From: Magnetospirillum sp. WYHS-4
GTDB taxonomy: Bacteria; Pseudomonadota; Alphaproteobacteria; Rhodospirillales; GLO-3
Assembly: GCA_039908345.1 (NCBI GenBank)
Contig: JAMOBD010000035.1
Location: 1-32,361, forward strand
Direction of reading: 5' to 3'
Length of the DNA stretch: 32,361 nucleotides
Shown: piece after piece, positions 4,525 to 16,295 of the stretch
Position numbering within the stretch: the first letter of the stretch is position 1
How the letters are laid out: every line of letters starts with the position of its first letter
The notes under the pieces: model-generated
What the model was told of the DNA's origin: nothing
Database searches by the model: none
The model's input: only the letters and a program-made list of their open reading frames with translations
Made by a program: the position numbers and the translations under genes

Positions 4525-5418
4525 ATGGCTTCGAACGCGGCATCCCTCCTGGTGGCGACTCCCTTGCCCCACGACGTGCGGGTGTCGTTCGAATTCTTCC
4601 CCCCGAAGGACGACAAGGCCCAGCAGGCGCTCTGGGAATCCATCGAGCGCCTGGGCCCCGTCAAGCCGGCCTTCGTCTCGGTAACCTACGGCGCCGGCGG
4701 CTCGACGCGCGAACGCACCCACGAGACCGTCCGCCGCATCCGCCGCGAGACCGCCCTGGAACCCGCCGCCCACCTGACCTGCGTCGGCCACAGCCGGGCC
4801 GAGGTCGACGCCATCGCCCGCCAGTACTGGGACGACGGCATCCGCCATATCGTCGCGCTCCGCGGCGATCCGCCCGAGGGGGCGACAAGGTACGAACCCC
4901 ATCCCGAGGGCTACGCCTATGCCGTCGACCTGGTGAAGGGCCTGAAGGAAATCGCCGACTTCGAGATCAGCGTCGCCGCCTATCCCGAGGTCCATCCGGA
5001 AGCCCCCAGCCCTCAATTCGACCTGGACAACCTGAAGCGCAAGGTGGATGCCGGGGCCTCGCGCGCCATCACCCAGTTCTTCTTCGATCCCGCCGTCTTC
5101 CTTCGTTTCCGCGACAAGGCGGCCGGGGCCGGCATCCAGGTTCCCCTGGTGCCCGGCATCCTGCCGGTCAGCAACTTCCGCCAGGTCATCAAGTTCGCCG
5201 GGCTTTGCGGAGCCGCCGTGCCGGGCTGGATGCACGATCTGTTCGACGGCCTGGACGACGACGCGAACACCCGCAAGCTGATCGCCGCCACCGTGGCCGC
5301 CGAACAGTGCCGGGCCTTGCATGCCGAAGGCGTCAAGGACTTCCACTTCTACACCTTGAACCGCGCCGACCTGGCCTTCGCCATCTGCCATATCCTGGGC
5401 GTGCGGCCCAGCCGTTAG
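4525..5418 (+). CDS. metF: Methylenetetrahydrofolate reductase
   Basis: The 297-residue flavoprotein reduces 5,10-methylene-THF to 5-methyl-THF, the methyl donor used by MetH next door. Visible family segments are SFEFFPPK (residues 21-28, containing the catalytic Glu), SVTYGAGGSTRERT, HLTCVGHS, and ALRGDPP, all in the expected order for a TIM barrel. The C-terminal RADLAFAICHILG segment is also typical. The start at ATG 4525 is preceded by GAGAAGG. MetH follows after 11 bp, so the two enzymes are co-transcribed and catalyse consecutive steps. The 77-bp leader is too short for a cobalamin riboswitch, and no such box is visible. Confidence 0.96.
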   Translation: MASNAASLLVATPLPHDVRVSFEFFPPKDDKAQQALWESIERLGPVKPAFVSVTYGAGGSTRERTHETVRRIRRETALEPAAHLTCVGHSRAEVDAIARQYWDDGIRHIVALRGDPPEGATRYEPHPEGYAYAVDLVKGLKEIADFEISVAAYPEVHPEAPSPQFDLDNLKRKVDAGASRAITQFFFDPAVFLRFRDKAAGAGIQVPLVPGILPVSNFRQVIKFAGLCGAAVPGWMHDLFDGLDDDANTRKLIAATVAAEQCRALHAEGVKDFHFYTLNRADLAFAICHILGVRPSR

Positions 5419-5429
5419 GGAGCCCCGCC

Positions 5430-8400
5430 ATGGCCCATATCCAAGACGTCCTCAAGGACCGCGTCCTGCTTTGCGATGGCGGCACCGGGACCCGCGTCCA
5501 GGCCCTTGACCTGAAGGTGGAAGAAGACTTCTGGGGCCACGAGAACTGCACCGACATCCTGGTGCGGTCCCGCCCCGACGTGGTGATGGGCGTGCACCGC
5601 GCCTATTACGAGGCCGGCTCCGACATCGTGCTGACCAACACCTTCGGCGCCTCGCCGGTGACGCTGGGCGAGTTCGGCCTGGAGAAGGAGGCCTTCGGGC
5701 TGTGCCGGGAAGCCGTCGGCTTGGCCCGCCAGGTGGCGGAGGAATTCAAGGACGGGCGCGAGCGCTTCGTCTTCGGCGACATCGGGCCGGGCACCAAGCT
5801 GCCCAGCCTCGGCCACATCCCGTATGACGCGCTGGAGGCCAGCTTCGCCGTCCAGGCCGCCGGTCTGATCGCCGGCGGCGCCGACGCCATCCTGATCGAG
5901 ACCTGCCAGGACCCCTTGCAGATCAAGGCCGCCGTCAACGGCGCCAAGCGCGCCCGCGCCGAAGCCGGCAAGGATACCCCGATCTTCGTCCAGGTGACGG
6001 TGGAAACCACGGGCACCCTGCTGGTGGGCAGCGACATCGCGGCGGTGGCCACCGCCATGATGGCCCTGGACGTGCCCTTGCTGGGCATGAACTGCGCCAC
6101 CGGCCCGCAGGAAATGGCGGAACACGTCAAGTGGCTGGGCGAGAACTGGCCCGGCCTGATTTCCGTGCAGCCCAACGCCGGCCTGCCCGAGGTGGTGGAC
6201 GGCAAGGCCTGCTATCCCCTGGGCGGGGAGGAAATGGCCCGTTGGATGGAACGCTTCGTCGTCGAGGACGGCATCAACATCGTCGGCGGCTGCTGCGGCA
6301 CCAACACGCCCCACATCGGCGCCATCGACGCCATGTTGCGCCGACTGGCCCCCGCCGGTTCCCATCGTCCGGCACCGAAGGCGCGCAAGTCCGCCTGGAC
6401 GCCGTCCGTCGCCTCCCTCTACGGCCAGACGGCGCTCCGCCAGGAAAACGCCTTCCTGGCCATCGGCGAACGCTGCAACGCCAACGGCTCCAAGAAGTTC
6501 CGCGACGCGCTCGCCGCCGAAGACTGGGACACCTGCGTCGCCATGGCGCGCGACCAGGTCAAGGAAGGCTCGCACACCATCGACGTCTGCACCGCCATGG
6601 TTGGGCGCGACGAAATCCGCGACATGACCGAGGTGGTGAGCCGCATGCGCGGTTCCGTCACCGCGCCCGTGGTGATCGATTCCACGGAACTGCCGGTCAT
6701 CGAGGCGGCGCTGAAGCTTTACGGCGGCAAGGCGATCCTCAATTCCATCAATTTCGAGGACGGCGAGGAGCCGGCGGCGAAGCGCCTGGAACTGGCCCGC
6801 AAGTACGGCGCCGCCGTCATCGCGCTGACCATCGACGAGGCCGGCATGGCGAAGACGGCCGCGGAAAAGCTGCGCATCGCCCGCCGTCTTTACGAGTTTT
6901 CGGTTAACAGGCACGGCCTGCCGGCGTCCGACCTGATGTTCGATCCGCTGACCTTCACCGTCTGCACCGGCAACGAGGACGACCGCCGCCTGGCCCTGGA
7001 GACCCTGGACGCCATCGCGGCCATCGCCAAGGAAATGCCCGAGTGCCAGATCGTCCTGGGCTTGTCCAACGTCTCCTTCGGCCTGAAGCCGGCGGCGCGC
7101 ACGGTGCTGAACTCGGTCTTCCTGGACGAGACGGTGAAGCGCGGCATGACCGGCGCCATCGTCCACGTCTCCAAGATCCTGCCGCTGCACACCTTGCCGG
7201 AAGAAGAGGTGAGGACGGCGCTGGACCTGATCCACGACCGCCGGCGCGAGGGCTACGATCCCCTGCAGGCCTTCATCGCCCTGTTCGCCGACCGCGCGGC
7301 CGGGCCGGCGGTGGCGAAGAAGCGGGCGGAAACGGTCGAAGAGCGTCTCAAGCAGCGCATCGTCGACGGCGACCGCCAGGGGCTGGAGGACGATCTGCTC
7401 GAAGCCTTGAAGACCCATGCGCCGCTCGCCATCGTCAACGACATCCTGCTGGACGGCATGAAGACGGTGGGCGAGTTGTTCGGGTCCGGCAAGATGCAAC
7501 TGCCCTTCGTGCTGCAGTCGGCGGAAACCATGAAGGCTTCCGTCGCCCTGCTGGAACCCCACATGGAAAAGACCGACGGCTCGGCCAAGGGCACCCTGGT
7601 GCTGGCGACCGTCAAGGGCGACGTGCACGACATCGGCAAGAACCTGGTCGACATCATCCTGACCAACAACGGCTACAGGGTGGTCAACCTGGGCATCAAG
7701 CGGCCGGTGCAGGACATCATCGCCGCCGCCAGGGAGCACAAGGCCGATGCGGTCGGCATGTCGGGTCTGCTGGTCAAGTCCACCGTCATCATGCGCGAAA
7801 ACCTGGAGGAAATGGCCCGCCAGGGGCTCGATGTGCCCGTCCTGCTGGGCGGCGCGGCGCTCACCCGCAAGTACGTGGAGGAAGACTGCCGCGCCGTCTA
7901 TCCGGGCGGCCGGGTGGGCTACGCCCGCGATGCCTTCGACGGGCTCGACCTGATGGACAAGGTCCTTGGCGGAACTTTCGCCGCCTCGACGCCACGCCCG
8001 CGGAAGGCCGCCGCGGCCATCGATCTTCCGGCCACCCCGATGCGGCCTGTCGACTGGGAAGAAGTTGATTTGCGCCGCGCGGAACTACGCAAGGCGGTCG
8101 CGGTGCCCCGGCCGCCCTTCTGGGGCGCCAGGCTGGTGGAACGCATCGAGCCCAAGGCGCTGGTGCCCTTCCTCAACGAGACCATGCTCTACCAGTTCCA
8201 CTGGGGCTTCAAGAAGGCGGGCCGGTCGCTGGACGAATGGAAGGCCTGGGCGGACCTGGAGGTGAAGCCCGTCCTCAAGCGCATGCTGGACCTTTGCGCC
8301 GCCGGGGACATCCTCAAGCCCCAGGCGGTCTACGGCTATTGGAAATGCGCCGCCGACGGAAACGAGGTGGTGCTGTTCGAAGAAGACGGCACCACCGAAG

Positions 8401-8894
8401 CCGCGCGCTTCGCCTTCCCGCGCCAGGCCGGCAAGGACGGGCTTTGCATCGCCGACTTCTTTCGCGCCGTCTCTTCCGGCGAACGCGACGTCATCGCGCT
8501 CCAGGCGGTGACCATGGGCGCCAAGGCATCCGATGTGGCGCGCCAGTGGTTCGCGGAAGACCGCTACCAGGACTATCTCTACCTGCACGGCCTGTCTGTG
8601 GAAATGGCGGAGGCGCTCGCCGAATACGTCCACAAGCGGATCAGGGGCGAACTGGGCTTCGGCCACGAGGACGCCCGCGAGATGGACAAGCTGCTCAAGC
8701 AGGGCTACCGGGGCTCGCGCTATTCCTTCGGCTATCCGGCCTGCCCGGACATGGCGAACCAGAAACCCTTGCTGAAGCTGCTGGGGGCGGACCGCATCGG
8801 GCTGGTCATGGACGAAAACGACCAACTCCACCCCGAACAATCCACCGCCGCCATCGTGCTGCACCACCCGCAGGCACGGTATTTCGTGGTGTGA
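5430..8894 (+). CDS. metH: Cobalamin-dependent methionine synthase
   Basis: The 1154-residue, four-module enzyme transfers a methyl group from methyl-THF through cob(I)alamin to homocysteine. Homocysteine domain: zinc ligands Cys222, Cys288 and Cys289 (GGCCGT). Pterin-binding barrel: from about residue 345 (AIGERCNANGS). Cobalamin domain: DVHDIGKN with the cobalt-ligating His733, preceded by a helical cap. Reactivation domain: RxxxGYPACP motif ending near Cys1105, which binds S-adenosylmethionine. All catalytic motifs are intact. It is somewhat shorter than the ~1227-residue E. coli enzyme. The start at ATG 5430 is chosen over the longer open frame because the sequence begins with the family-typical LKDRVLLCDGGTGT and follows directly on metF. 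Confidence 0.97.
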   Translation: MAHIQDVLKDRVLLCDGGTGTRVQALDLKVEEDFWGHENCTDILVRSRPDVVMGVHRAYYEAGSDIVLTNTFGASPVTLGEFGLEKEAFGLCREAVGLARQVAEEFKDGRERFVFGDIGPGTKLPSLGHIPYDALEASFAVQAAGLIAGGADAILIETCQDPLQIKAAVNGAKRARAEAGKDTPIFVQVTVETTGTLLVGSDIAAVATAMMALDVPLLGMNCATGPQEMAEHVKWLGENWPGLISVQPNAGLPEVVDGKACYPLGGEEMARWMERFVVEDGINIVGGCCGTNTPHIGAIDAMLRRLAPAGSHRPAPKARKSAWTPSVASLYGQTALRQENAFLAIGERCNANGSKKFRDALAAEDWDTCVAMARDQVKEGSHTIDVCTAMVGRDEIRDMTEVVSRMRGSVTAPVVIDSTELPVIEAALKLYGGKAILNSINFEDGEEPAAKRLELARKYGAAVIALTIDEAGMAKTAAEKLRIARRLYEFSVNRHGLPASDLMFDPLTFTVCTGNEDDRRLALETLDAIAAIAKEMPECQIVLGLSNVSFGLKPAARTVLNSVFLDETVKRGMTGAIVHVSKILPLHTLPEEEVRTALDLIHDRRREGYDPLQAFIALFADRAAGPAVAKKRAETVEERLKQRIVDGDRQGLEDDLLEALKTHAPLAIVNDILLDGMKTVGELFGSGKMQLPFVLQSAETMKASVALLEPHMEKTDGSAKGTLVLATVKGDVHDIGKNLVDIILTNNGYRVVNLGIKRPVQDIIAAAREHKADAVGMSGLLVKSTVIMRENLEEMARQGLDVPVLLGGAALTRKYVEEDCRAVYPGGRVGYARDAFDGLDLMDKVLGGTFAASTPRPRKAAAAIDLPATPMRPVDWEEVDLRRAELRKAVAVPRPPFWGARLVERIEPKALVPFLNETMLYQFHWGFKKAGRSLDEWKAWADLEVKPVLKRMLDLCAAGDILKPQAVYGYWKCAADGNEVVLFEEDGTTEAARFAFPRQAGKDGLCIADFFRAVSSGERDVIALQAVTMGAKASDVARQWFAEDRYQDYLYLHGLSVEMAEALAEYVHKRIRGELGFGHEDAREMDKLLKQGYRGSRYSFGYPACPDMANQKPLLKLLGADRIGLVMDENDQLHPEQSTAAIVLHHPQARYFVV

Positions 8895-9072: not shown

Positions 9073-10359
9073 ATGAAAGAACTCCGCAAGATGACCAATT
9101 TCTCCGGGCTCGGCCTTATCGAGCCCCTGCTGCGCGCCGTTGCCGCCGAGGGCTACGAGGCCCCCACTCCCATCCAGGCGCAATCCATTCCCCACCTTCT
9201 GGAAGGCCGCGACCTGCTGGGCGTCGCCCAGACCGGCACCGGCAAGACAGCCGCCTTCGTGCTGCCCCTGCTGAACGACCTGGCGTCCGCCGAGGGGCGT
9301 CCAGGCCCCCGCGAGGTCTTCAGCCTGGTGCTGGCCCCGACTCGCGAACTCGCCATCCAGATCCATGATTCCGTGCGCACCTACGGCCGCTTCCTGCGCC
9401 TGCGCAGCGCCGCCGTGTTCGGCGGCGCCCCCATCGGCAAGCAGATCAAAGCCGCTGCCACGGGCTTGGATGTCCTGGTGGCGACGCCGGGCCGCCTGAA
9501 GGACCTGCTCGACCGCAAAGCCTTGCGTCTCGACCGGGTGGAGACCTTCATCCTGGACGAGGCCGACCGCATGTTGGACCTCGGCTTCATCAACGACGTG
9601 CGCAAGATCGCCGCCCTGCTGCCGCGCGAGCGCCAGACGGTGCTGTTTTCCGCCACCATGCCGCAGGCGGTCGCCAAGCTGGCCGCCAGCCTGCTCAACA
9701 ACCCCGAGCGGGTCGAGGTGGCGCCGCAGGCGACCACGGCGGAACGCATCGAACAGCGCGTCCTGTTCGTCCAGCGCGACAAGAAGCGCAATCTGCTGAG
9801 CCGCCTGCTGGCCGACGACGCCGGCATCCAGCGGGTGCTGATCTTCACTCGCACCAAGCACGGCGCCGACAAGGTGGCGCGCTGGCTGGACAATGACGGC
9901 GTGTCGGTGGACGCCATCCATGGCAACAAGGCGCAGAACGCCCGCCAGCGGGCCCTCGACGGCTTTCGCAGCGGTCGCCTGCGTGCCCTGGTGGCGACCG
10001 ATATCGCGGCGCGCGGCATCGATGTCGATGGCGTGACCCACGTCATCAACTTCGACCTGCCCAACGACCCGGAAAGCTATGTGCACCGCATCGGCCGCAC
10101 GGCGCGGGCCGGCGCGGCGGGCATGGCGATTTCCTTCTGCGACGCCGAGGAACGCCCCTACCTCCGCGATATCGAAAAGATCATCCGCCAGGCGGTGCCG
10201 GTCCATACCGACCATCCGTTTCACGACGACAGCGGCGCCGGCGGCCACCTGAAGGCGGCCAAGGGTGCCGGCGGCCGTCACATGCCGGCCCCGCCGCGCG
10301 GCGGCGACCGCAACCGGGGGCGGCCCGGCAACAACAACCGGCGGCGCCAAGCCGCCTGA
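9073..10359 (+). CDS. rhlE: DEAD-box RNA helicase, RhlE type
   Basis: A 428-residue ATP-dependent RNA helicase, probably acting on ribosome assembly or RNA turnover. Motifs are in order: GYEAPTPIQ (Q motif), AQTGTGKT (52-59), PTRELA (89-94), DEAD (162-165), SAT (193-195), then RGID and HRIGRTARAG in the second RecA-like domain. The C-terminal ~60 residues are basic and Gly/Asn/Arg-rich, the kind of unstructured RNA-binding tail seen in RhlE proteins. Met7 (ATG 9091, sequence MTNFSGLGL) aligns better with the E. coli RhlE start than Met1 does; neither has a strong ribosome-binding site. The 178 bp between metH and this gene hold no other gene that I can see. Confidence 0.93.
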   Translation: MKELRKMTNFSGLGLIEPLLRAVAAEGYEAPTPIQAQSIPHLLEGRDLLGVAQTGTGKTAAFVLPLLNDLASAEGRPGPREVFSLVLAPTRELAIQIHDSVRTYGRFLRLRSAAVFGGAPIGKQIKAAATGLDVLVATPGRLKDLLDRKALRLDRVETFILDEADRMLDLGFINDVRKIAALLPRERQTVLFSATMPQAVAKLAASLLNNPERVEVAPQATTAERIEQRVLFVQRDKKRNLLSRLLADDAGIQRVLIFTRTKHGADKVARWLDNDGVSVDAIHGNKAQNARQRALDGFRSGRLRALVATDIAARGIDVDGVTHVINFDLPNDPESYVHRIGRTARAGAAGMAISFCDAEERPYLRDIEKIIRQAVPVHTDHPFHDDSGAGGHLKAAKGAGGRHMPAPPRGGDRNRGRPGNNNRRRQAA

Positions 10360-10426
10360 TGGCGGTCAAGGTGCCGGACGGACGGACCTTCTAGCACTGG
10401 GGGCCTTCGCAACCACGGAGGCCCCC

Positions 10427-11038
10427 ATGGACTACCCCCCCTTTTTCGACGACGTCCGGCGCATCCGCATGCGCGATCCGCTGCTCGCCTTCCTGGGCGG
10501 ATCGGATAGCGGGATCGTCGAGTATTCCTACCGCGACGCGGTGAAGCTGGCCGGGCATTCCTGTCCGACCGTGGCCGGTACCTGGCTGATGCTCGCCAAG
10601 GGGCTGGAGGCGCTTTACGGCCGCGAGGTTCCCGAACGCGGTGCCATCCGCGTCGCCCTTCCCGATTCCCGCGACCAAGGCGTCGCCGGGGTGATGGCCA
10701 ACGTCGCAGCCCTGGTCACCGGAGCCACGGCCAGCGATGGCTTCAAGGGCCTGGGCGGCCGGTTCGACCGCCGCGACCTGCTGTCCTTCGGCCAAGGCTT
10801 CGCGGGCGACCTGCGTCTGGCCCGCGTCGATACGGGGGCGGCGGTTACCCTTACCTATGCGGCTTCCGCCGTGGTGCCCCCGGCGCCCGAGATGCAGGCC
10901 TTGCTGCGCACCTTGCTAGGCGGTGGCGGCGGCGAGGCGGAGCGGCGGGAATTCGGGCGGCTGTGGCAGGAGCGCGTGCGCCGCATCCTGCTGGATTGCG
11001 CCGACGATCCCCGCCTTCTAACCGTGACGCTTTCGTAA
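10427..11038 (+). CDS. FmdE-like protein
   Basis: A 203-residue protein with the start set at ATG 10427 by a GGAG ribosome-binding site 6 nt upstream. Residues ~38-140 resemble the FmdE family (subunit E of formylmethanofuran dehydrogenase operons): a GHSCPTVAG segment (His44, Cys46) corresponds to the family's H-x-CPG motif, followed by a Leu/Tyr-rich helix and an ITGATASDGFKG-like strand. Bacterial FmdE-domain proteins have no firmly assigned function and are thought to bind metal. No molybdopterin or formyl-transfer gene lies nearby, so the genomic context gives no role. It converges with the PP2C gene and overlaps it by 21 bp. Confidence 0.6.
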   Translation: MDYPPFFDDVRRIRMRDPLLAFLGGSDSGIVEYSYRDAVKLAGHSCPTVAGTWLMLAKGLEALYGREVPERGAIRVALPDSRDQGVAGVMANVAALVTGATASDGFKGLGGRFDRRDLLSFGQGFAGDLRLARVDTGAAVTLTYAASAVVPPAPEMQALLRTLLGGGGGEAERREFGRLWQERVRRILLDCADDPRLLTVTLS

Positions 11039-12574
11039 GCAGCGGACCGCCGTCAGATCATCGGACAACGGGCGGTCGACCCCGGCGAAGAAGGGTGCGA
11101 GCAAAGTCTGCAACGGCACCCGGACGCCATGGTCGCGCACCGCGTCCCGAACCAGATCGACCACTCCCTGCCGGCCGAGGGCCCGGCCCTTCTCGCGCCC
11201 GCATTCCAGCAGGGCGTCGCTGTAGAGGAACAGCAGACCACCGTCCGGGAAGGGCACCCGGCGTGTCTCGTACCGGACGTTCTTGGTCACGCCGACCGGC
11301 AGGCCGGAGCCGTCGATGGCCCTCACCGCGCCACTGGCCGGATCGGCCAGCAAGGGGCGCGGTGCGGCGGCGGCCGCATAGCATAGGGTTTCCTCGGCCA
11401 CGTCGATCACGCCGTAGAACATGGTGGCGTATTGGCCGGTGGGCAGCAAGGCGGCCATGCGGCGGTTGAGGGCCTGCAAATAGTCGCCCGGCTTGTCCAG
11501 GTCGGCGGCCAAGGTATCGAGCACCGTATGGAGGCGGAAGGTGTTGAGGGCGGCGGTGACTCCGTGGCCCGAGAAATCGGCCATGTAGAGGGCGAAGCGG
11601 CGGTCGTCGATCGGCTTCAGGCCCCAGATGTCGCCGCCCAGTTCCGACGAGGTCTCGAAATGGGCCTCGATGGCGACGCCGTAGCGCTCCTCGACGGCCT
11701 GGATTTCCTCGGGTGTCGGGAGCATTTCCTCCTGCATGACGCGGGCGGCGCGCAGGTCTTCTTCCACCCGGACCCGGAAGTCTTCCAGGGACTCGTGGGT
11801 GTCCATCAGGCGTTCGTGGACCTGGGCCAGGCGCAGGCTGTGGCGCACTTCGTGGGTGACGTCGGTTCCCGTGCCGGCATAGCCGAGAAGGGTGCCGTCC
11901 GGGCCGAAGCGGGCCTCGCCCTCGATGCGCAGGGCGGCGGGACCGCCGGTCCGGGTCGGCAGGCCGAACAGCAGGTCGCGGAAAGACCGTCCGCCCGAGA
12001 TGTCAGCCCGCAGGCGGCTCCAGAAATCGGCCGGCTGCTCGAAGAGATCGAGGTCCCAGAAGGTGCGTCCCAGGGCCCGAGCGGCATCCAGGTCGGTACG
12101 GCCGCGCAGGCCGTCGGAAAACCAGACGAAGCGGGAATGGGCATCGGCCTCCCAAAGGAAGCCGCCGGGGCCGGCCGGCAGGACGCCCAGGGCCTTGGTG
12201 CGGTTCTGGCGTCGGCGGACCGCCCGCCGATGGCCGGCCGCACCCAGGAGGAAGGCGGCGGCATCCAAGATGCCGGTCTCTTCCGCCAGCAGGAAGTCGG
12301 TGGCCCCGAAGGCGAGCGCGCGCAGGGCCTCCGCCTCGCCGCTACGTACCGTCCAGACGATCACCGCGGCATCGGGGGCAGCCTCGGCCAGCTTGGCCAC
12401 CGCATGGGCCAGGGGGGTCAGGCCGGTGGCATCGGCGACCACCACCGCGAAGCCGCCGACCGTCGCCTGGGCGATGGCCTCGTCGAGGCTTTCGGCGAGG
12501 GTCGCCGGCAGGCCGCGGAAAGGGGCCGGAATATCGGTACCGACGGCCAGAAGGGTGGGAAGGTCGAATGTCAT
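11018..12574 (-). CDS. SpoIIE/RsbU-type PP2C phosphatase with pseudo-receiver and PAS domains
   Basis: 518 residues. Residues ~1-115 look like a response-regulator receiver (ADATG with Asp48 at the acceptor position, GATDFLLAEE at the end), but the conserved Lys-Pro is replaced, so phosphorylation is doubtful. Residues ~135-245 form a PAS domain (FLWEADAHSRFVWFSD). A coiled-coil linker follows (250-285). The C-terminal half is a PP2C/SpoIIE phosphatase with metal residues in ELGGDIWG (Asp315), MADFSGHG (Asp333) and LSDDLTAV near residue 502. Such enzymes dephosphorylate STAS-domain anti-sigma antagonists; the obvious substrate is the STAS protein encoded at 13513-13821. It starts 1 bp after the stop of the upstream gene, so translation is probably coupled. 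Confidence 0.88.
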   Translation of the reverse strand: MTFDLPTLLAVGTDIPAPFRGLPATLAESLDEAIAQATVGGFAVVVADATGLTPLAHAVAKLAEAAPDAAVIVWTVRSGEAEALRALAFGATDFLLAEETGILDAAAFLLGAAGHRRAVRRRQNRTKALGVLPAGPGGFLWEADAHSRFVWFSDGLRGRTDLDAARALGRTFWDLDLFEQPADFWSRLRADISGGRSFRDLLFGLPTRTGGPAALRIEGEARFGPDGTLLGYAGTGTDVTHEVRHSLRLAQVHERLMDTHESLEDFRVRVEEDLRAARVMQEEMLPTPEEIQAVEERYGVAIEAHFETSSELGGDIWGLKPIDDRRFALYMADFSGHGVTAALNTFRLHTVLDTLAADLDKPGDYLQALNRRMAALLPTGQYATMFYGVIDVAEETLCYAAAAAPRPLLADPASGAVRAIDGSGLPVGVTKNVRYETRRVPFPDGGLLFLYSDALLECGREKGRALGRQGVVDLVRDAVRDHGVRVPLQTLLAPFFAGVDRPLSDDLTAVRCLRKRHG

Positions 12575-12575
12575 G

Positions 12576-13484
12576 TCAGCCAGCCTTCTCCGATGGCGTC
12601 ATGACGGTCGCCACGACCTCGTTGCCGCAGCCCCGGTATTCCAGGGAATCGAAGCTCATGTTGCGGGCCAGGGCGATGCCGCGGCCGTGGCTGTCGAAGA
12701 CCCGGCGCGGGTCCATTTCCAGATACTTGCGCCAATCGAATCCCACCCCCTGGTCCTTGACCGTAATAGCGATGCGGTCGGGCTGGCGCTCGAACAGAAC
12801 CTCGACGGCCTTGTCCCGGTTGGCCGGTGCGGCGAGGCGGGATTCCACTTCCTGGTCCAGGCGTCGTTCGGCGATCAGGGTGGACTTTTCCTCGTAGGTG
12901 ATGCCCAGGTTGCCATGTTCGACCGCGTTGGCCAGCAGTTCGGACAGCCCGATGACCCGCTTGCGCGGGTTGGGGCAGGCGGCGGCCAGCACTGCCGCCA
13001 AGTCGGCCCCCTGCTTCATGCTGCGGAAGCGGAACAGGCTGGACTGCATGAGGCCCAGCACCTGGGTGCGCTGCTCGACGTCGCGACGCAGGCGGCAGAA
13101 GCGGGCGTAATCCTCCACCGCCGCGGCGGTGATGGACAGCAAGACGGCCGGCTCGAAGGGCTTGGTCAGATAGTAGAAAACGCCGGCCTTGATGCCTTCG
13201 ACGATTTCCTGCTGGCTGTCGGCGGCGGTCTGCATGATGACCGGGATCGACGACAGCTCGGCGTCGGCCTTCATGCGCCCCAGCAACTCCATGCCGTCCA
13301 TGTTCGGCATGCGGCGGTCGAGCAGCACCACGTCGACGGTATCGCCGGCTTGGCGCAAGAAGTCCCAGGCCTCGGCACCATCCGACGCGGTCGATATCTC
13401 GTAGCCCATCGCCGCGAGCTGTCCGGACAGCAATTCGCGGTTCAGGCGGTTGTCGTCGACGACCAGGGCCTTGATGGCGCCCAT
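12576..13484 (-). CDS. Response regulator with HATPase (RsbW-like) output domain
   Basis: 302 residues. An N-terminal receiver has the full active site: Asp10/Asp11, acceptor Asp56 (LLDRRMP), Thr86 and Lys108 (TKPF). Residues ~165-295 carry a GHKL ATPase fold: N-box ELLANAVEHG (Glu182, Asn186), G1 box DQGVGFD (244-250) and G2 box HGRGIALA (266-273). No dimerisation/His box is seen, so it resembles an anti-sigma serine kinase of the RsbW/SpoIIAB type rather than a histidine kinase. Its likely partner is the STAS protein 28 bp upstream in the operon, which it would bind or phosphorylate under control of its own receiver. The phosphodonor kinase for Asp56 is not in this window. Confidence 0.88.
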   Translation of the reverse strand: MGAIKALVVDDNRLNRELLSGQLAAMGYEISTASDGAEAWDFLRQAGDTVDVVLLDRRMPNMDGMELLGRMKADAELSSIPVIMQTAADSQQEIVEGIKAGVFYYLTKPFEPAVLLSITAAAVEDYARFCRLRRDVEQRTQVLGLMQSSLFRFRSMKQGADLAAVLAAACPNPRKRVIGLSELLANAVEHGNLGITYEEKSTLIAERRLDQEVESRLAAPANRDKAVEVLFERQPDRIAITVKDQGVGFDWRKYLEMDPRRVFDSHGRGIALARNMSFDSLEYRGCGNEVVATVMTPSEKAG

Positions 13485-13512
13485 GAGGTTCTACCGAAAT
13501 GGAGGTAGAGAA

Positions 13513-13821
13513 TCAGCGGGCGAGGATGGGGAACAGGGTGTCGAAACAGGCCAACTCCAGCATTTCCTTGACCGCGCCTTGGGGGCGGGCGAGGGCGACG
13601 CTGGCGCCGTTCCTTTCCGCCTGCTCGCGCAACGTCAGCAGCATCCCGAGGCCGGCCGAGTCCATGAAGGTGAGGCCTTGGAAGTCCACCTCGATGGTGG
13701 TCGGGCGGCTGACGAAGACGCGGGGCAGAAGGGAATCGAACTCGTTGCGATCGGCGGCCACGAGCTGGTCGCCGATCTGCAAGACGGTCTTCCCGCCATC
13801 GGTCTTGATCTCGTATTTCAT
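13513..13821 (-). CDS. STAS-domain anti-sigma factor antagonist
   Basis: A 102-residue single STAS domain of the SpoIIAA/RsbV type. The phospho-acceptor loop is intact: FMDSAGLGML, with Ser55. It lies between the chemoreceptor gene (40-bp gap) and the receiver-HATPase gene. The three following proteins thus give a switch protein, a kinase-like partner and a phosphatase. The final target of the switch (a sigma factor, a cyclase or the chemotaxis machinery) is not encoded here. The start at ATG 13821 is preceded by AGGAGGCCGTTCC on the coding strand, a strong ribosome-binding site. Confidence 0.92.
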   Translation of the reverse strand: MKYEIKTDGGKTVLQIGDQLVAADRNEFDSLLPRVFVSRPTTIEVDFQGLTFMDSAGLGMLLTLREQAERNGASVALARPQGAVKEMLELACFDTLFPILAR

Positions 13822-13862
13822 GGAACGGCCTCCTGAGTTTCGGTGTGTCCCTGTCGCTGCGC

Positions 13863-16295
13863 CTAGCGGCTTTTCTGTCGGGTCGCTATGAAGCGTTCTA
13901 AGGCTTCGGTTTGCGCTTCGTCCATATCCAGACGAATGTGCGTCGAAGTTTCGGTCTTGGCAACAGCCACGGCGGCCACGACCCCCAATCCACCGATCTC
14001 GATCTTGAACTCCTGTCCGCGCCCCAGGTCAAGGGCCCGGTCAAGAATGGCGACGCCGCTCAGGGCGACTTCCTGCATCAGGCAGGTCCGCCGGCCATCG
14101 GCGGCGTCGAGGGTGGCGGCTACGTTGATCGTATGCAGTTCGTTGATCTGGCGGTCCTCCTCGCTGCTGGCCCGCATGATGGTTTCCAGGGAATGCTGCA
14201 TGTGCTGCAGGCGTTCCCGCACCTCGGCTGCGGATTCCTTGACCTCCTGGGAATGGGAACCGGTCTGCTCGGTGCGCCGGCCCATCTCGCCGATGTGGCC
14301 CGAGGATTCCTGAGTGCTGTGCGCCGCCTGCCGGGCGTTGTCGCTGATGGCGCCCGTGGCGGCGCTCTGTTCGTCCACCGCCGCGGCGATGGTGGTGGTG
14401 ACCGCGTTGATTTCGCCGATGGTCCGCCCGATGCCCTGAATGGCTTCCACGGCCTCGCGTGTCGCCGCCTGGATGCCGCCGATCTGGGCGCCAATCTCTT
14501 CGGTGGCCTTCGCGGTCTGGTTGGCCAGGTTCTTTACTTCCGAGGCGACGACTGCGAAGCCCTTGCCGGCATCGCCGGCCCGTGCCGCCTCGATGGTGGC
14601 GTTCAGTGCCAACAGGTTGGTCTGCTCGGCGATGTCGGTGATAAGGTCCACCACCTCGCCGATCTTCTGGGCGGCCCGGGCGAGGCCCTGGACCCGGACG
14701 TTGGTCCGTTCCGCGTCGGCCACCGCCTGGGTGGTGATGGCCGTCGATCGTTCCACTTGGCCGGCGATCTCCTGGATCGAACGCGCCAGTTCTCCCGCAG
14801 CCGCCGCGACGGCGTCCACGCTGGCCGCCGCCGCGGTGGAGGCCTTGGCGGCGGAGTCGGCCATGCTTTCCGCCTCGACGACGGAATGGCTCATGTCGAT
14901 GGCGGCCTCGTGCATGGCGTCGGCCTGCTGGACCACGATGCCGATGGCGTTGCGGACTTCCTGGTCCAGCGCGTTCGTGAGCGCGAACATCTCGTTCTTC
15001 AGCTTGCGCTGGTTGCGCCTTCCCTGAGCTTCCTGCTCGGCGGCCATCTGCCTGAGCTTCAGGGCCTGGTCCTTGAAGATTTGGACGGCGTCGGCCATCT
15101 CGCCGATCTCGTCCTTGCGGTCCAGGCATGGGACCTTTACCGCCAACTGGCCATGGGCGAGGCTGGAAGTCGCTCGGGTCATGCGGGCGATGGCGCCTGC
15201 TATGGTGCGCGAGAACAGCACGCCGATGGCGATGGCCAAAGCCATGATGACCAGGGTGGCGACGATCATGAAGTTGCGGGTCTCGGCGACCGGTTCCAGG
15301 ATCTCCTTTTCGTCGATTTCGGCGATCACCGCCCACTTCTTGCCGAGAAACTCGATCCTGCCGTAGGCGGCCAGCACCTTGTCGCCGTGATGGTCGGAGC
15401 CGCGCAGCATGCCCGGCTCGCCGCCCAGGGCTTTTTCCACCTGGGGGGTATCGACCCTGACGGCCAGGATGGTGGGCTTGTCCGCGAGGCGGGAATCGCT
15501 GCGCATCAGGCGATCCTCGCCCACCAGATAGGTCTCGCCGGTGCGGCCCATGCCGGCGGACTGCTGCATGATGGCGTCGATACGTGGCAGCGGCATGCGG
15601 AACAGCAGCACGCCCAGGAAATTGCCCGCGTCTCCCATCGGGGCTGCCACAAATCCGGCCGGTGCCCCGCTGTCGGGGGCGTAGGGACGGATGTCGGTGA
15701 ACGCCACGGCGCCGGGTTTGGGGTTGTCCTTGAGGGTGCGGAAGACCTCGCCCAGCAAGCTGCCCTTCCATTGGTCGCTTTCCAGGTCGATGGCGTAGTC
15801 GTTGCCCTTGGTGACTGTGTAGACCACCACCCCTTCGGCATCGATCAACACCACGTCCTGGTAGCCGCGCCGGTCCATGAACTTGCGGAAGACCGGATGA
15901 TGGCGGGCATGGGTTTCCGAGAAGCGGGAACGGTCGGGCTTTTCCAGTTCGTGGCGTTTGCCGGCCGGATGGGGGTTCTCGTCGACGAACAGCTTGCGGG
16001 CCTTCTCGATGCCCTTGTCCTTGCCGCCGAAGCTCATGGCCTGGCTGAATTCCAGGGCCGCCTCGACCATTTGCTGGTTCTCCGAGAAGCTCAGGATATC
16101 GTCACGGATGATCTTCAGGTAGTCGTCCAGCCCGGCAATTCGGGCCTGGGTCAAGGCCCCCAGCCGTTCCTGGGCCGCCGTAACGAGCTGGCCCGAGGAC
16201 TTCTGATAGGCGACCAAGCCCAGGACCAACTGCGCGGCAAAGACCACCGCCGCGATGAACATGGGCAGCTTGATCGAGATCTTGAGACTCGACAT
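13863..16295 (-). CDS. Methyl-accepting chemotaxis protein with dCache-like sensor and C-terminal PilZ-like domain
   Basis: 810 residues from ATG 16295, chosen because a GGAGGGG ribosome-binding site precedes it and [10 protein letters not shown] leads directly into TM1 (~11-30). A large periplasmic sensor (31-340) has the [22 protein letters not shown] strand typical of double-Cache receptors. TM2 is ~341-361, HAMP ~362-415, and the signalling coiled coil carries the conserved tip [24 protein letters not shown] (557-580). Residues ~720-808 form a PilZ-like beta domain. A. brasilense Tlp1 is a known chemoreceptor with a C-terminal PilZ domain. Here the c-di-GMP motifs are degraded: only Arg-Arg remains of RxxxR, and DxSxxG reads ALSGVA. 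It heads the partner-switching operon. Confidence 0.9.

Follow-up and report, generated by a model that had tools for sequence, protein, structure and literature searches.

A partner switch without an adjacent sigma factor, encoded behind a tailed chemoreceptor in Magnetospirillum sp. WYHS-4

The window, as we call the whole stretch of DNA analysed, comprises 32,361 nucleotides of Magnetospirillum sp. WYHS-4 (assembly GCA_039908345.1, contig JAMOBD010000035.1) and is contig C35 of a 3.65-Mb genome in 172 contigs. Four consecutive genes on its minus strand (11018-16295) code for a chemoreceptor, a STAS protein, a kinase composed of a receiver (REC) and a HATPase domain, and a PP2C phosphatase. 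Judged from their domains and intact catalytic residues, the operon proteins form a complete partner-switch set of the RsbV/RsbW/RsbU type with no adjacent sigma factor. Partner switches are best known for the control of sigma factors, and chemoreceptor adaptation is best known for methylation. Since kinase, phosphatase and STAS protein are all present, no sigma factor is found nearby, and the receptor's sensor varies across relatives while its C-terminal tail stays constant, docking of the STAS protein on this tail is the economical reading. We propose, with a probability of roughly 45%, that the operon encodes a sigma-free switch in which the STAS protein would dock on the tailed chemoreceptor and act on it.

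The operon, its active sites and its distribution

The four genes lie where a sequence-only reading of the window had placed them, and Pfam agrees with the identities assigned there: double-Cache chemoreceptor, STAS protein, receiver-HATPase and PAS-PP2C protein. The chemoreceptor (13863-16295, 810 residues; ATG picked from the sequence, with GGAGGGG eight bases upstream) matches MCPsignal, HAMP and dCache_1. Its dCache sensor domain (residues 47-325, 15321-16157) matches PF02743 with an E value of 9e-12 and 45.5 bits, barely above the cut-off of 45, and its signalling domain (residues 534-656, 14328-14696) matches PF00015 with 1.1e-28. The STAS antagonist (13513-13821, 102 residues; PF01740, 2.1e-15) has the intact Ser55 that had been claimed, in the motif FMDSAGLG; this serine (codon 13657-13659) is the predicted phosphorylation site. 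The kinase (12576-13484, 302 residues) matches Response_reg (2.3e-27) and HATPase_c_2 (2.2e-10), and the phosphatase (11018-12574, 518 residues) matches SpoIIE (1.5e-35), with a PAS_4 match (1.2e-4, 22.7 bits) slightly below the cut-off of 23.1. The intergenic gaps amount to 41, 28 and 1 bp; the last two had been read correctly, the first had been given as 40 bp. Two features were absent from the sequence-only reading, a PilZ-like tail on the receptor and a weak, degenerate receiver-like match at the N-terminus of the phosphatase (Response_reg, E 0.17). A Pfam scan recognised no sigma-factor family among the four operon proteins or the eight flanking open reading frames (ORFs), in keeping with the idea of a full kinase/phosphatase/antagonist set without a sigma factor. 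The same proteins include neither CheA nor CheW and, therefore, the operon is not a che operon.

Active-site residues were counted over 30 places, including one duplicate and two tail-less operons (L180, L193). The D-S motif is kept in all 30 operon STAS proteins in the alignment and also in other aligned STAS proteins that adjoin chemoreceptors; by analogy to SpoIIAA/RsbV, the serine at this position would carry the phosphate. Searched against solved structures, the STAS family profile matches mostly anti-sigma factor antagonists. In the kinase receiver D11, D56, T86 and K108 are kept in 30/30, and the first acidic residue (D10 in the window) is D in 27 and E in 3. All eight positions checked in the N-box and the glycine motif (DxGxG, GxG), which have established roles in HATPase kinases, are kept in 30/30. 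So are five aspartates of the phosphatase, which belong to the metal site of PP2C enzymes; at another five phosphatase positions one to three rows deviate. HsbA Ser56 offers a precedent comparable to Ser55 (PMC6482189). SenB, PDB 9qih, a protein known to us by name alone, on which nothing was found in the open-licence literature, aligns with the kinase across both its domains, receiver and HATPase (query residues 5-291; E 2.6e-19).

Of 317 genomes from the order, 94 match the kinase domain at E up to 1e-5. Domains were scanned in 60 stretches around these matches, in 80 loci from named genomes (the best 80 of 461 relatives, many of these loci stopping at contig ends) and in the window. This gave 143 kinase-domain places, among them a few duplicates (L069/L149; L070/L174 apparently another). 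At 30 places a STAS gene and an upstream gene for a methyl-accepting chemotaxis protein (MCP) share the strand of the kinase gene, with a SpoIIE domain nearby. A phosphatase only was found at 31, STAS without a receptor at seven (five with phosphatase, two without), and receptor plus phosphatase with STAS undetected at two. The remaining 73 have none of the three partners in the positions tested, and some of these stretches end at contig ends.

The same gene order, which the sequence-only reading had suggested looking for elsewhere, is found with a tailed receptor in 27 genomes of the order, the window's included. This number is the 30 places less L069 (same contig as L149) and the tail-less L180 and L193; it includes L157, whose tail is encoded at the expected position though in an overlapping frame, and excludes G148 (L309), in which the kinase lies at a contig edge. 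The four-gene set is more than a chance neighbourhood. The unit is conserved, the chemoreceptor comes first in it, as had been claimed, and the genome has a second receptor-STAS-kinase-phosphatase cluster on contig C41, described below. A kinase-phosphatase fusion is found in 21 of the 27 operons, 20 times as REC-HATPase-PP2C and once (L172) as PP2C-REC-HATPase; the other 6 have separate genes. Among the 80 named-genome loci, from the best 80 of 461 relatives, the whole set occurs in Roseospira visakhapatnamensis (L069) only. In two loci (L166, L188) the operon has five genes, the additional one lying between STAS and kinase and coding for another, shorter receptor with the tail. In other members of the order (L391, L392, L395) a related switch type was seen, in which a STAS gene adjoins HATPase and REC/PP2C, either as a fusion or as separate genes, and no receptor is adjacent.

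The receptor tail and its association with STAS

The tail comprises the last 105 residues of the receptor (706-810; 13866-14180, minus strand). Its match to the Pfam PilZ family PF07238 is weak, with an E value of 0.2 in the whole protein and of 0.0054 for the tail alone, which is below the cut-off; 11 of the 14 members of the tail set A1, including the window's, match PilZ at E up to 1, the best with 1.2e-7. AlphaFold2, run on three sequences, gave a best model of five with a predicted local distance difference test score (pLDDT) of 80 (53 to 78 for the others) and a predicted template modelling score (pTM) of 0.69. The top PDB match of the tail model in Foldseek is the PilZ domain 4i86 (E 1.7e-4, TM 0.63); three matches reach an E value of 0.001 or lower, each of them a PilZ entry. 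The tail is thus predicted to have a degenerate PilZ fold.

Chemoreceptors with a PilZ domain, like the window receptor, are described: Tlp1 and Aer of Azospirillum and Cbp1 of Azorhizobium (PMC6454048, PMC6406031). These retain the arginines that bind cyclic di-GMP (c-di-GMP), and the parts of the two reports available to us do not speak of a partner switch. If the tail sensed c-di-GMP as in Tlp1 and Cbp1 and its proximity to STAS were secondary, this would agree with the predicted fold and with the known c-di-GMP-binding receptors of this build (PMC6454048, PMC6406031). The RxxxR motif argues otherwise. Both arginines are present in 0 of the 63 distinct strong tails from the fetched loci and the window tail has neither; over the 63 tails, the first position is R in 37 and L in 24, and the second is N in 54. 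At the [D/N]xSxxG motif the window tail reads EVALSG, and over the 63 tails the serine position is Ser in 21 and Ala in 42, the last glycine being kept in all 63. Since no tail has both RxxxR arginines, which are reported to be required for c-di-GMP binding in several PilZ proteins (PMC6454048), the tail is, to judge from its residues, probably not a canonical c-di-GMP sensor, and we find this explanation hardly credible.

To compare the parts of the operon, median identities between the window and 24 operons were set against a shuffled control. The 24 do not include the duplicate L069, nor L159 (cut by a contig end) and L157, whose omission leaves the medians unchanged; L166 and L188 are represented by the inserted receptor nearest STAS. 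The sensor had a median identity of 25% (shuffled control 23%), and the signalling domain had 54%, the tail 44%, STAS 49% and the kinase 52% (controls 19-23%). By this measure the sensor is interchangeable across relatives while tail, STAS and kinase are conserved, and the constant element beside STAS, as far as alignments tell, is the receptor tail and not the sensor.

The tail is selective among the receptors of a genome. In eight genomes every candidate was scored, with a strong tail defined by an E value below 1e-12. G120, G122 and G139 have one strong tail each among 54, 50 and 61 MCP matches, respectively, and that tail is the operon's. The other ratios of strong tails to MCP matches were 3/16 in the window genome, 2/25 in G314, 3/11 in G212, 8/16 in G209 and 6/38 in G204.

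Tail and STAS are also inherited together across the order. The 317 genomes were searched with at most 15 candidates scored per genome, so tails may be missed; the cut-offs were an E value up to 1e-17 for a strong tail, at least 95 bits for the STAS subfamily and an E value up to about 1e-32 for a strong kinase. A strong tail was found in 42 genomes and the STAS subfamily in 37; the tail is present in all 37 genomes with the STAS subfamily, and 275 genomes have neither. The same 14 of 115 genera are marked by tail and by STAS. Tail and strong kinase relatives, counted within and outside such operons, occur together in 34 genomes, the tail alone in 8 (including G148, whose kinase is cut by the contig end) and the kinase alone in 16. 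In a tree of 68 STAS rows, from which some duplicates were omitted, the 40 tail-associated rows form one branch with moderate support (86/83) on few columns.

Tail and STAS are also found together without the rest of the set. At five loci (L384-L388) a tailed receptor neighbours STAS and no kinase or phosphatase was detected in the fetched stretch; the contig of L384 has just 4.3 kb, the signalling part and the tail of L385 are in separate frames and in L388 STAS comes first. In G207 and G208 the operon with the fused kinase retains the tailed receptor but shows no detected STAS, and operon-type STAS relatives adjoin other tailed receptors. Separately, tandem STAS genes that group with the window STAS subfamily were observed in the window genome (L296 on C20, 3-891, plus strand), about 12 kb from another tailed receptor.

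Several observations weigh against a special bond between tail and STAS, or against the operon as a fixed unit. The tail occurs without the STAS subfamily in five genomes (G033, G049, G050, G052, G206), one of which, G050, is a single contig. The 95-bit limit was chosen after inspection of the list, in which no clear score gap is seen (98 to 92 bits); genomes at 84-92 bits, by guess Azospirillum-like, have no strong tail, and a lower limit would admit many tail-less genomes. Fisher values for the association are not independent tests because the genomes share ancestry, and part of the association is operon linkage itself, the tail being part of the operon. In a distance correlation given the signalling domain, the partial r was 0.07 for tail and STAS and 0.08 for tail and kinase; all parts correlate and neither pair stands out. 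Dispersal of the genes in close relatives, which the sequence-only reading had named as a sign against a functional module, is found in the nearest relative, G001, the sole other genome of the window's family in the comparison set: its tailed receptor lies on C124, its STAS gene on C95 and there is no kinase match. The genes are not dispersed in 26 other genomes of the order. Finally, the switch of genus g25 has no adjoining receptor in the fetched stretches, and its tailed receptors lie elsewhere.

STAS genes are found near receptor genes outside the operon, too. Five genomes picked as operon carriers have 48 STAS matches, of which 14 are no more than 2.5 kb from an MCP match, compared with 1.7 expected from random placement; with the operon's own pair removed, the figure is 9 of 43, with 1.5 expected. 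These neighbours bear on one alternative, namely that co-transcription is all there is: the switch would serve an unlinked target and the receptor would be a passenger of the same regulon. The 73 of 143 kinase-domain places without any of the three partners agree with this, as do the g25 switches without an adjacent receptor. Against it speak the 27 conserved operons, the selectivity of the tail within genomes and the recurrence of STAS-MCP neighbours just given, and we judge it quite unlikely.

Individual arrangements were recorded as well. The second cluster of the window genome (L314, C41:5000-15000; 4986-8638, minus strand) has the order receptor, STAS, HATPase and receiver/PP2C; its receptor of approximately 488 residues has no matched sensor domain and its kinase no receiver match. 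For a third chemoreceptor-STAS pair of this genome (L390 on C36, 3346-5740, plus strand), the stretch fetched shows no switch kinase. Further receptor/STAS arrangements are L317, L318 and L320, and in L393 and L394 the receptor follows a STAS-HATPase-REC/PP2C set.

The receptor as target or as input

The mechanism we propose would run as follows. The receiver-gated HATPase would phosphorylate Ser55 of the STAS protein, as its family and its catalytic residues suggest, and the PP2C protein, again by family, would remove the phosphate. Depending on this phosphate, the STAS protein would dock on the degenerate PilZ tail of the operon receptor, as well as on that of sibling receptors that share it, and the docked protein may change either the control of CheA by the receptor or the building of the array. 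Input to the switch could arrive through the kinase receiver, with CheA as a possible donor, which would give a feedback loop, and through the PAS domain of the phosphatase. Receiver and PAS domain would thus give the switch inputs of its own, which favours the receptor as output. If CheA phosphorylated the receiver, the receptor would be the input, or the loop would be closed.

The sequence-only reading had supposed a chemoreceptor-led switch that couples attractant sensing to serine phosphorylation. The complete, conserved set stands; that the receptor feeds the switch is one possible direction. The constant tail beside STAS and the receptor-STAS neighbours without a detected kinase fit a receptor that is the partner or target of STAS no less well than one that is the input. 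In the input version, the direction of the sequence-only reading, the receptor would control CheA, CheA would phosphorylate the kinase receiver, and the phosphate state of STAS would be passed to an unlinked output, for instance a sigma/anti-sigma pair or a diguanylate cyclase. The receiver residues are complete in 30/30, save for D/E at the first acidic position, the receptor retains a standard signalling domain, and the genome encodes the chemotaxis proteins that are needed: a che cluster (L312) with CheA, CheW, CheR and CheB, and a second CheA match on C31. Still, this version leaves the constant tail with its variable sensor unexplained, as well as the tailed receptor/STAS pairs without a detected kinase, and the receiver has no known histidine kinase partner. 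We consider it rather unlikely.

The receptor need not bypass CheA, because the standard signalling domain is kept and two CheA matches are present; the che cluster and the second CheA match allow it to function in a normal array. A wider claim, possible and more doubtful than docking by itself, is a layer of serine phosphorylation in which STAS would dock, by its phosphate state, on a degenerate PilZ tail carried by one or several receptors; a cytoplasmic state would thereby gate array output alongside methylation by CheR and CheB. At L312 (2696-4871, plus strand), a gene for a PAS protein overlaps a chemoreceptor gene; by arrangement only, this resembles a two-protein aerotaxis receptor (PMC12442639).

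A STAS protein of chemotaxis is already known in this class. CheS, a STAS-only protein of alphaproteobacterial che operons (Sinorhizobium, Agrobacterium), binds CheA (PMC12654446). CheS and the window STAS are both small STAS proteins tied to chemotaxis; CheS is encoded in a che operon, the window STAS is not. We examined 20 CheA regions, 19 from other members of the class and the window genome's own, and found a STAS match next to a CheY-like gene in 6, one of them very weak. The D-S phosphosite is present in 0 of the 5 clear che-region STAS proteins that were aligned, and in the STAS tree the che-region rows branch apart (99/98), a result to be taken with caution given their long branches. 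On these grounds, together with the operon not being a che operon, the identity of the window STAS with CheS was rejected. A CheS-like protein in the looser sense, acting on CheA to control phosphate flow and having the serine switch as added control, would draw on the same precedent (PMC12654446) and the six CheA regions; the missing motif, the separate branch and the kind of operon make it highly improbable.

Precedents, significance and neighbouring genes

In the Hsb and Sia systems the STAS genes and the genes of their partners are neighbours. HsbA binds FlgM or HsbD (PMC6482189) and SiaC pairs with SiaD (PMC9239204), so STAS proteins with non-kinase partners are on record. The basic logic of the window switch is that of HsbR-HsbA in Pseudomonas and CrsR-CrsA in Shewanella (PMC6482189) and of SypE-SypA in Vibrio fischeri (PMC12826045): a receiver-gated HATPase kinase and a PP2C phosphatase determine whether a STAS serine carries phosphate, and outputs that replace or supplement a sigma factor are described for all three. 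HsbR, SypE and CrsR combine receiver, phosphatase and kinase in one polypeptide whereas in the window kinase and phosphatase are separate genes, and, unlike Hsb, Syp and Crs, the window switch adjoins a tailed chemoreceptor. The kinase architecture is shared by TciR of Vogesella indigofera, a receiver fused to an RsbW-like domain (PMC12826045); TciR regulates indigoidine, and Vogesella indigofera reportedly has no RsbV homologue. To the knowledge of the authors of that study, no protein of this architecture had been functionally characterised before (PMC12826045).

The one clearly related proposal found was made in 2022 for Campylobacterota, in which a REC-bearing PP2C-kinase fusion might alter chemoreceptor conformation via a STAS protein (PMC9239204). 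The parts are those of the window type; the pathway differs in belonging to another phylum and in being a prediction of one sentence, and a receptor tail is not mentioned in the portion of the source at hand. No description of the tailed receptor-STAS pairing was found in the open-licence literature searched, as far as its texts were available. Because an effect of STAS on a chemoreceptor has already been suggested (PMC9239204), the pairing with a dedicated receptor tail is a new part, not a new category.

The recurrence of the pairing in related bacteria suggests that the switch has the chemotaxis apparatus, and not a sigma factor, as its output or its input. With a conserved phosphorylatable STAS protein and a dedicated receptor tail, a direct link between partner switch and chemoreceptor can be tested on one small protein, one serine and one tail. 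The pairing also suggests a possible role for this degenerate PilZ domain and for the STAS genes that adjoin chemoreceptor genes; in the five genomes examined, such STAS genes are commoner than random placement predicts.

Around the operon, a convergent ORF without Pfam match (10265-11038, plus strand) overlaps the 3' end of the phosphatase gene by 21 bases, and a gene for a FUR-family regulator (PF01475; 16640-17143, plus strand) is divergent from the operon's 5' end. The remaining flanking ORFs match methionine synthase, DEAD helicase, Hsp20, TPR, iron alcohol dehydrogenase and cold-shock protein.

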